Part shown: in pieces, positions 50,027 through 52,904 of the stretch
Layout: each line of letters starts with the position of its first letter
Position numbering within the stretch: position 1 is the stretch's first letter
Source: Sordariomycetes sp. S80-01Y
Taxonomy: Eukaryota > Ascomycota > Sordariomycetes
Length of the DNA stretch: 64,000 bases
Assembly: GCA_037042185.1 (NCBI GenBank)
Contig: JAXQJY010000032.1
Span: forward strand, 620,001-684,000
Direction of reading: 5' to 3'
The notes under the pieces: generated by a model
Databases searched by the model: none
Seen by the model: only the letters and a program-made list of their open reading frames with translations
Told to the model about the DNA's origin: nothing
Translations under genes and position numbers: made by a program

Positions 50027-52904
50027 TTACAACCCACTCACTTCCTCCATTCTGATGACGAACTCCTCCTGCAGACGCTGTAAATACCCTGGTAGCGCCT
50101 CTTCATTCCCTGACTCATTGGCCTGCTTCAGGGCTTCGTGAAGATTGAGGATAAGACGCCGACGGGCCATAACTTTGCCGGAATCGGAGTTCTGCCGGTT
50201 GGCAGCTCTCTTCTGCCTAAGGTCGTTGGCAACTTCCTCGGCTTTATGTATGAACGAGGGCGGGAGGCCAACAGCCCGAGCAAGCGTGATACCATAGTTT
50301 TCGTCTTCATCAATCATGCCGGAAGCTACTTTGTACAACATGGTGATTTGAGGCAGGCCGTCTTCTCTGACTGAATTCTTTGCTGCCAGGTGTAAGTTCA
50401 GTACGCCAGGGCGATCGGCGAGTGCCCTGGCTAGTTCGATGAAGTGAGTTGCGAACCAGACCGATGCCTTACTCTGAATTAAAGCTTCCGACATAGCTAC
50501 CGCTATGGCAAGTCCGTCGCGTGTGCTGGTCCCACGACCTAGTTCATCGATGATGGCCAAGCTCTTGTCGTTTATGTTCCGCAGGATGAAAGCCATTGAT
50601 TGCATTTCGACCGAGAACGTCGATAGGTTTGATTCTATGCTGTCGTTCATCGAAACGCGGGCGAAAAGTTGATGAGTGACGGGGAATGACGCATACTCCG
50701 CCGGGACGAAGGAACCAACTTGTGCCATGATTTGAAGAAGGGCAACCGAGCGGATGTAGGTACTCTTGCCACTCATATTGCAGCCAGTAACGATGTGAAA
50801 GCGGTACTGCTCAGTAGCGTAGTAGTCATTGGGCACGAAAGAGGTAGCTATGTTCTGCGGGATGTCAGCTCATGTGATCTTATGGTGGGCGGCTTTTGTA
50901 CATTGTCAAGTATGGGGTGCCGAGCACCCTTCAGCGCCAGCGTGGGCGTGATCTCTGGTTTAACGTAGTCTCGAGTGGTTGCAAGCTGACCAAAAGATGA
51001 AATCATGTCCACCATGGCCACCGCCTCGCAGACTGAGAAAAGCTGGGGTGCTGCGGACCGCAGGTCCTTGACTAAGTCGGCGACCACCTTGTCACTGCGC
51101 AGCACGCACTCGTTAGAAGTGTCCGATAGTCGGAAGTTCAACTTGACAAGGTCCAGAGTTTGGCACTCGATCTTGTCCTTTTTGCGAATTGCGTTGATGA
51201 AGATGGGAGGCAAGGTATCGTCCTCAAAGTCCGAGGCTCGCAAACGCAGCTAGTATTTGCGGCCATTATCGAACTTCAAAATAGCGTTTATCTGATACTC
51301 TTCTATCGAATAGTCAGCCAGTTATTCACCATTAGTCGAGGCTGCCTTGCCGTTGATTTGATCGACGTGTTGGTGGATGTCCTCCGTCAGTTCCTTGTAA
51401 GTCTGGCGAGCAACGTCAAGCATTCCGTTGACGCCTGGTTTGACTGCAAAGGTACGCTGGTTGCGAAGATCTAGAGGTGATTTCATGTATGTGACATCTG
51501 CCTCGATGACACGGCGAATGCTGTCTAAGACGGGGTTCGTTAGCTCGGGATGGCAGTTGTCTCTAACCTTGACGAGCAACACAGATCTGGCAGACGTCAG
51601 AGCTTGATGGATTGCAGGTGTGGCCTCAAGAAAGCTCTTCATCAAAAGTATATTATTGATTTGGCCTTCCATGTGCGTCACATCGGTCGAAATCGATACG
51701 ATAATAAGCCTGGTGAGCAGCTTCTCGACGTCTTGGAACAGTTTCAATGCTACGAGATGTCAGCGATTATGCATAGCTTATGCGCGAGACTGACCCTTCC
51801 GAATTCCTAGGAACATGTCTTCGTTGGTTGTCAGTTCTTCCAAGGCGTCATGTCTGGGGACAATAATCTCCCTCTGCCGCGTAGGTGGCTGCAGGATGTT
51901 GGTCCGAAGTAGACGAGCCCCCATGGGCGTAGTTGTGTGGTTTAGCAAGCCGAACAGACAGTCTTTCGACTTGTGATCACGGGAGTTCTGCATGATTTCG
52001 AGTGATTCGAACGCGGCAATATCTATCATCATTGTATCGTCAGAAGGTTGGTACCTGACTCGCAGCGAGTGAGGCACAAATGTGATTGTAAAGTGCTTCC
52101 CGATGTACTTCATTGCCTAACCAGGTTAGTCAGCGTGTCTCGAATAAGGATATCAGCCATACTTACTGCGCTGAGAGACGAAATAGCATAATACTTGCCA
52201 TTGATGGCCACCTTGAGTGGCTCAATATCGTTCATGAAAGCGAGATGTCGTATATAGTCATAACCTTCGCTCTCTGACCAGGCAGATCTATCGAATGCGT
52301 CAATCTGTGCCTCGGATACCAGCTCCTGGACCGTTGAATATAGGACGCTGGGTCGATTAGGGGGGCAGGCCGTAGACATGAAGAGAACCCTGGAAGGGCC
52401 CATTGTTTGAATCTTGTTGATCGTCTTCACGTAGGACTGGTTGTCGCAGATTTGACTGAGAATCACATCGCCATGAGAAACGTTCACAAAGGCGATACCG
52501 ATGGTGGGCGTCACGCCCCGAGCCTCACTGACCGCACAGATGATGGTCTCAGATTCGCGTCTTCCGAGGATGCTTGAAATGTTGGTACCACGCGATTTGC
52601 GGCCAAATGCGGTCCCTGATCGAGTTTCCGGGCGCGATGCTGAGGTGCGTGAGGGGCTCATGCTGGTACTCGCCATCGACTGAGTATACTCAGACTGTCC
52701 ACCAGTGTAACTGCCATGAGTGTCCGCTGTGTCCGCCCTTGAAATTCTTGAGACACGCCCGTCATTGTTTCGTATAGTTTTGGGGCCAGTAGAGAAATGG
52801 GAAGATGAACCTTCACTAGGGGGGGTTGTTTTTGTCGCTGAGGATGCATGGGGATCACCAATTGAGAGTGGACGTTGACGTTGTCGACTTCGAGGTCTGA
52901 GCAT
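50027..52904 (-). CDS. MSH4: Meiotic MutS homologue MSH4 with an in-frame TAG
   Basis: MSH4 pairs with MSH5 to stabilise crossover intermediates in meiosis. Minus-strand exons are 52904-52167, 52116-51795, 51749-51351, 51302-50902 and 50854-50027, making 896 codons including one internal TAG. Exon 5 holds the ATPase: P-loop TGCNMSGKST, signature STFSVEM and Walker B LAIIDELGRGTS. The MutS core precedes it (KYIGKHF, LFGLLNHTTTPMGARLLR). Intron 3 (51350-51303) is GC-AG (GCAAGG donor); using it gives DQINEEYQINAILKFDNGRKY. The next codon, TAG at 51252-51250 (codon 504), stands where a Trp or other aromatic is expected, and the frame then continues LRLRASDFEDD to the end. It may be edited to UGG in sexual tissue (see findings), bypassed by alternative splicing, or a true break. 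Lacking Msh2-type N-terminal mismatch domain supports MSH4 over MSH2/3/6. Confidence 0.9.
51235..51264 (-). promoter_or_regulatory. MSH4: Predicted RNA hairpin presenting the MSH4 UAG
   Basis: In the MSH4 transcript, GGC-CGCAAA (51264-51256) can pair with UUUGCG-A-GCC (51244-51235), nine base pairs with one bulged A. The 11-nt loop (51255-51245) is UACUAGCUGCG, and the A of UAG (51251) is its fifth base, preceded by U. Hairpin loops with U before the target A are the preferred sites of the sexual-stage A-to-I editing of Sordariomycetes. Folding was done by eye. Confidence 0.55.

Follow-up and report, generated by a model that had tools for sequence, protein, structure and literature searches.

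An in-frame UAG in a fungal MSH4 gene as a candidate site of restorative A-to-I RNA editing

In Fusarium graminearum, A-to-I editing corrects UAG to UGG in PUK1 and AMA1, as the initial annotation of the locus described here had stated and as PMC4817773 bears out. The same paper places AMA1, SPO22 and RID among 69 further PUK1-like genes. A stop codon is likewise restored by editing in CHE1, where the stop is conserved in related Fusarium species (excerpts of PMC11169179), and Ame1 has been described as an activator of mRNA editing in this fungus (excerpts of PMC11087585). For fungal MSH4 we found no A-to-I editing in the open-licence literature, nor for MSH5 among the first 10 of 41 matching papers; such cases may stand in supplementary gene lists.

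Here we describe an MSH4 gene with one in-frame UAG in Sordariomycetes sp. S80-01Y. The gene lies in a window of 64,000 nucleotides, the whole stretch of DNA analysed (positions 620,001 to 684,000 of contig JAXQJY010000032.1). We put the probability that the UAG is a restorative editing site, at which a premature stop is corrected, at roughly 80%.

The MSH4 gene and its internal stop

A MutS_V profile search of the whole genome returned six places, one of which is MSH4. Its features, in window coordinates, are listed below.

52904-50027, minus strand: MSH4 gene, five exons
52167..52904, minus strand: exon 1, start at 52904 assumed (first ATG, open frame; homologues)
51795..52116, minus strand: exon 2, from the spliced open frame
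51351..51749, minus strand: exon 3, from the spliced open frame
51303..51350, minus strand: intron 3, taken to be of GC-AG type, 48 nt; homologues have no insert here
50902..51302, minus strand: exon 4, contains the internal stop; from the spliced open frame and homologue alignment
50027..50854, minus strand: exon 5, complete MutS_V ATPase domain (Pfam PF00488, 8.6e-64)
51250..51252, minus strand: in-frame TAG, candidate A-to-I site being the A at 51251; Trp column in the homologue alignment
51223..51280, minus strand: predicted RNA hairpin whose apical loop (51252-51248) contains the UAG, from RNA folding, shuffles and re-coding

Joining the exons (52904-52167, 52116-51795, 51749-51351, 51302-50902 and 50854-50027) gives 896 codons including the final stop, which confirms the earlier description of a spliced frame open except for one TAG. 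Three introns are GT-AG (50, 45 and 47 nt). The frame depends on a GC-AG intron 3 of 48 nt (51350-51303), and this reading is the best one because an intron from the GT donor at 51329 would be 27 nt long. The apparent GC-AG type of this intron is a rare kind.

Proteins named MSH4 are among the best homologues, with 60-71% identity along the length, and the same holds for the piece downstream of the stop. The gene is thus identified by its relationship to annotated MSH4 along its length and by its ATPase domain, which is complete in exon 5 as first reported (PF00488, 8.6e-64). Identity does not exceed 71% in the best 120 of 646 homologues. The top homologues belong to Tolypocladium, Fusarium, Stylonectria, Neonectria, Cosmosporella and Stachybotrys, genera that we take to be Hypocreales. 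The host is therefore a Sordariomycete, by these matches a hypocrealean one, and has no close annotated relative among the best 120 of 646. Two fragments are closer: P0124 is 98% identical over 69% of the downstream piece and P0241 is 97% identical over 78% of exon 4.

The sole internal stop is the TAG at 51252-51250, between DNGRKY and LRLRASDF. Among the aligned homologues (best 120 of 646), 96 of 120 have Trp in this column and 19 have Tyr, with 5 gapped here, in line with the initial expectation of Trp or another aromatic residue. Judged by source name, the Tyr rows are presumably Leotiomycetes plus one member of the Xylariomycetidae. A set of 58 exon-4 fragments shows Trp in 28, Tyr in 2 and Phe in 1, the column not being covered in the other 27. 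Because Trp is the conserved residue, a UAG read as UGG gives the amino acid expected from homologues. Given Trp at this codon, the MSH4 coding sequence (CDS) would contain 3 Trp codons, and a single-base change could create a stop in 290 ways; TGG-to-TAG accounts for 3 of these 290 and for 3 of the 52 that are transitions.

Two further features of the matches were considered. The nearest fragments, P0241 (97%) and P0251 (78%), begin downstream of the TAG site, a late start that fits a stop and would equally fit a plain choice of start. Gaps in five homologues (P0026, P0042, P0064, P0065 and P0067) were rejected as signs of a conserved stop because F. graminearum is represented by an ungapped sequence with Trp (P0017) as well.

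Decay was assessed over 259 columns that are at least 90% conserved among homologues (best 120 of 646). MSH4 deviates at 10 of the 259, with 7 of 128 before the stop and 3 of 131 after it. This downstream rate is equalled or exceeded in 52 of 119 homologues (one was dropped for too few columns), a comparison tilted slightly toward the homologues because they helped define the columns. The upstream rate is reached by just 20 of 120 homologues, which counts against editing. The gene model has neither another stop nor a frameshift, and none of its splice sites is broken. With 3 deviations in 131 columns after the stop and a complete ATPase, the remainder of the gene is intact and conserved, unlike that of a decaying gene, as had been claimed. 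Two of the 10 deviating columns (codons 135 and 705) are also restorable by A to G; neither was counted as an editing candidate because both have C at -1.

The predicted hairpin around the UAG

In the predicted fold, an inner stem of 10 pairs joins 51264-51255 to 51245-51235 with base 51238 bulged, an isolated C-G pair (51253/51247) encloses the loop UAGCU (51252-51248), and an outer stem of 12 bp joins 51280-51269 to 51234-51223. The initial annotation had the TAG in an 11-nt loop closed by nine pairs with one bulge. The hairpin predicted here is larger than that, with its tenth inner pair, the short UAGCU loop and the outer stem.

The 60-nt fold has an energy of -24.6 kcal/mol (z -4.35), and none of 200 shuffles is as good. 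Longer folds are less extreme (100 nt, z -2.55, 4/200 shuffles; 140 nt, z -1.83, 8/200), and the 32-nt core by itself is unremarkable (z -0.94, 33/200). For the scoring of UA sites we followed the 30+30 nt convention of work on F. graminearum (excerpts of PMC9600606). Alone among the 99 UA sites of the MSH4 CDS, the TAG site lies in a hairpin loop this stable. The background was a set of 40 open reading frames (ORFs), each 400 codons or longer and not checked gene by gene, taken from the window and from 200 kb of sampled genome. Of their 1733 UA sites, 679 fall in a hairpin loop of any stability and 6 in one that is at least this stable; 15 match the energy in any position. Within the MSH4 CDS, 2 of 854 codon-centred 63-nt windows are as stable (windows with the in-frame TAG excluded).

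Synonymous re-coding matched both stability and loop in 83 of 5000 sequences with ORF codon usage and in 36 of 5000 with MSH4 usage. With the -1 base fixed, re-coding of 21 codons and of 11 codons each gave 95 matches in 5000. Against editing, 3543 of 5000 re-codings (ORF usage) and 3408 of 5000 (MSH4 usage) leave the A in a hairpin loop. The counts therefore indicate that loop placement comes easily to this peptide and that stability does not.

The candidate A thus has U at -1 and sits in a stable predicted hairpin loop, the U being automatic because the codon is UAG. Compared with the preferences given in excerpts of PMC9600606, the flanking bases are preferred at 4 of 6 positions (-2, -1, +1 and +4) and depleted at +2 and +3, the latter counting against editing.

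Editing machinery, meiotic genes and MSH5

In F. graminearum Ame1, residues M500-V501, E546/R548 and D589 are needed for Tad3 contact or function, and S531A is tolerated (excerpts of PMC11087585). Activity of the complex of Tad2, Tad3 and Ame1 has also been reported in yeast. The host genome has three DUF726 genes, one of which is the AME1 orthologue:

G000:C13:1430056-1434102: AME1 orthologue (L009), with M500, V501, E546, R548, D589 and H629 in register

The register was set by ungapped counting from position 531, and the MV motif is absent from the two other DUF726 genes. Where the hydrolase nucleophile would stand, S531 in F. graminearum, the orthologue carries Gly and is therefore probably no active hydrolase. 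A gene that we take to be Tad2-like, from its motif, is also present. The machinery identified thus comprises an AME1 orthologue and a Tad2-like gene, and does not include Tad3 or FIP5.

Stops in these gene families were rejected as editing candidates: a TAG in DUF726 match L007 ends a standard-looking intron, a TAG in deaminase match L012 sits at an intron donor, and a TGA in the Tad2-like match L013 lies within an intron. No stops were found in the matched parts of MAT alpha box, SPO22, SPO11, HORMA, Sec63, Rad21/Rec8, Rad51 and MutL genes. A DNA_methylase search matched one gene (L017, G000:C16:2897519-2901046), either RID or DIM-2; in contrast to FgRID, it is free of stops over its matched parts. 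For the Rad51 family there were one strong and one weaker match (G000:C12:1587579 and C13:1223850), so a separate DMC1 may be absent.

Another of the six MutS genes is, from its motifs, presumably MSH5:

G000:C3:16913-20497, minus strand: MSH5 (L006), MutS_V match

Five of the six MutS genes have DE in Walker B (DELGRGT or DEIGRGT), and MSH5 has IDKFGKGTN. Its Lys codon, AAG at C3:18743-18745 on the minus strand, stands at the position of the catalytic Glu; Glu is also the residue in the three listed solved-structure alignments, all with MSH3 chains. GAT precedes the codon, hence U at -1. A 12-bp stem is predicted to carry the 5-nt loop U-A-A-G-U, in which the candidate A comes second, as it does in MSH4; such a placement is shared by 19 of 1751 background UA sites. 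A-to-I editing would turn AAG (Lys) into GAG (Glu) and so restore the catalytic residue.

Several observations count against editing of MSH5. Along the MSH5 stretch, 7 of 96 UA sites, the candidate included, lie in a loop at least as stable; re-coding of 21 codons matches it in 532 of 5000 sequences and re-coding of 11 in 167 of 5000; the context is preferred at 3 of 6 positions (-1, +1 and +2; excerpts of PMC9600606); and the case was noticed after the fact among six MutS genes. Lys at this position may be ordinary in this group. The gene is read provisionally as two open frames of 401 and 371 residues, and it may extend past the matched locus on the 5' side. We regard it as a tentative idea, at somewhat less than even odds, that MSH4 and MSH5 are both inactive as encoded and both restored by RNA editing in the fruiting body. 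One protein complex would then need editing in both subunits, making crossover formation doubly dependent on the editing enzyme.

Competing explanations and known systems

The stop could instead mark a recent loss of MSH4 by a plain nonsense mutation, if the strain or its lineage is asexual or forms crossovers without MSH4-MSH5. A single stop suffices to kill a gene, but here it came without any further stop, frameshift or broken splice site, and with 3 deviations at the 131 conserved columns that follow. RIP or cytosine deamination would likewise produce the G to A change, which is of the CpA-to-TpA sense, and the upstream part deviates somewhat more than in most homologues (best 120 of 646). 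Set against these points, the stop is among the few that editing can restore to a conserved residue, and its predicted hairpin is stabler than codon choice predicts. The catalytic residue is altered in MSH5 too, where the Lys could be the second lesion of one decaying complex; AME1 and meiotic genes, however, are retained. On balance we consider loss unlikely. An assembly or sequencing error, with a true base giving TGG, would have to change a single base, yet that random hit must have produced a restorable stop within an unusually stable hairpin. MSH5 would need another such error, and the assembly consists of 16 contigs, several longer than 2 Mb, so that we hold an error to be extremely improbable.

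Alternatively, the codon could be bypassed or removed without editing, which we judge very unlikely. The stop is followed by CUG close to the hairpin, a conceivable context for read-through. As for alternative splicing, FgBUD14 of F. graminearum combines it with editing at its stop (excerpts of PMC11156358). In MSH4, 78 GT/GC-AG intron candidates of 40-200 nt span the TAG; the only one with a consensus-like donor and a YAG end shifts the frame and has no branch site. Reading frame was followed for donors within exon 4, at 51350 or at 51329. Eight candidates are in frame, none with a CTRAY branch site or a YAG end, and they would take away part of the conserved DNGRKYWLRL block. Over this range of donors we thus found no in-frame intron with standard signals that removes the stop, and splicing around it was rejected.

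Editing is accordingly the reading that we prefer, as initially proposed: the conserved Trp, the AME1 orthologue, the undecayed remainder and the lack of an in-frame standard intron at the donors considered all support it. Translation of unedited mRNA would end after 503 residues and leave out the ATPase. In the sexual fruiting body, Tad2-Tad3, activated by Ame1, would convert the hairpin-loop A to I, just as this deaminase acts on A34 in a tRNA anticodon loop. The edited UAG would be read as UGG, the conserved Trp inserted, and full-length MSH4 then made for meiotic crossovers. From the sequence we infer this editing and its sexual timing, and the stop may have a regulatory role as a developmental switch for crossovers.

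SPO22, also known as ZIP4, belongs to the same crossover pathway as MSH4. If the editing reading is true, MSH4 would be the second gene of this pathway under editing, and a core crossover protein would require an active sexual-stage editing enzyme, tying meiotic recombination to RNA editing. The locus would also test, in a gene of understood function, why fungi keep correctable stop codons.

Among known systems, the PUK1-type genes of F. graminearum resemble MSH4 in having a UAG in an otherwise open frame that UGG restores, with U at -1, a hairpin loop, a role in sexual reproduction and a Sordariomycete host. They differ in that their editing was demonstrated by RNA-seq, whereas that of MSH4 is read from sequence, and PUK1 itself has two tandem stops where MSH4 has one (excerpts of PMC4817773 and PMC11156358). 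CHE1 likewise has a single mid-frame TAG in a hairpin loop and is restored by editing, but it is a zinc-finger gene edited in hyphae (excerpts of PMC11169179). Two further cases are SPO22 (FGRRES_01563) and AMA1 (FGRRES_10728), meiosis genes in which UAG becomes UGG; the SPO22 domain match in the host genome has no stop inside, unlike SPO22 of F. graminearum (excerpts of PMC4817773). Because that SPO22 is a precedent from the same pathway, MSH4 would join the known stop-corrected genes.
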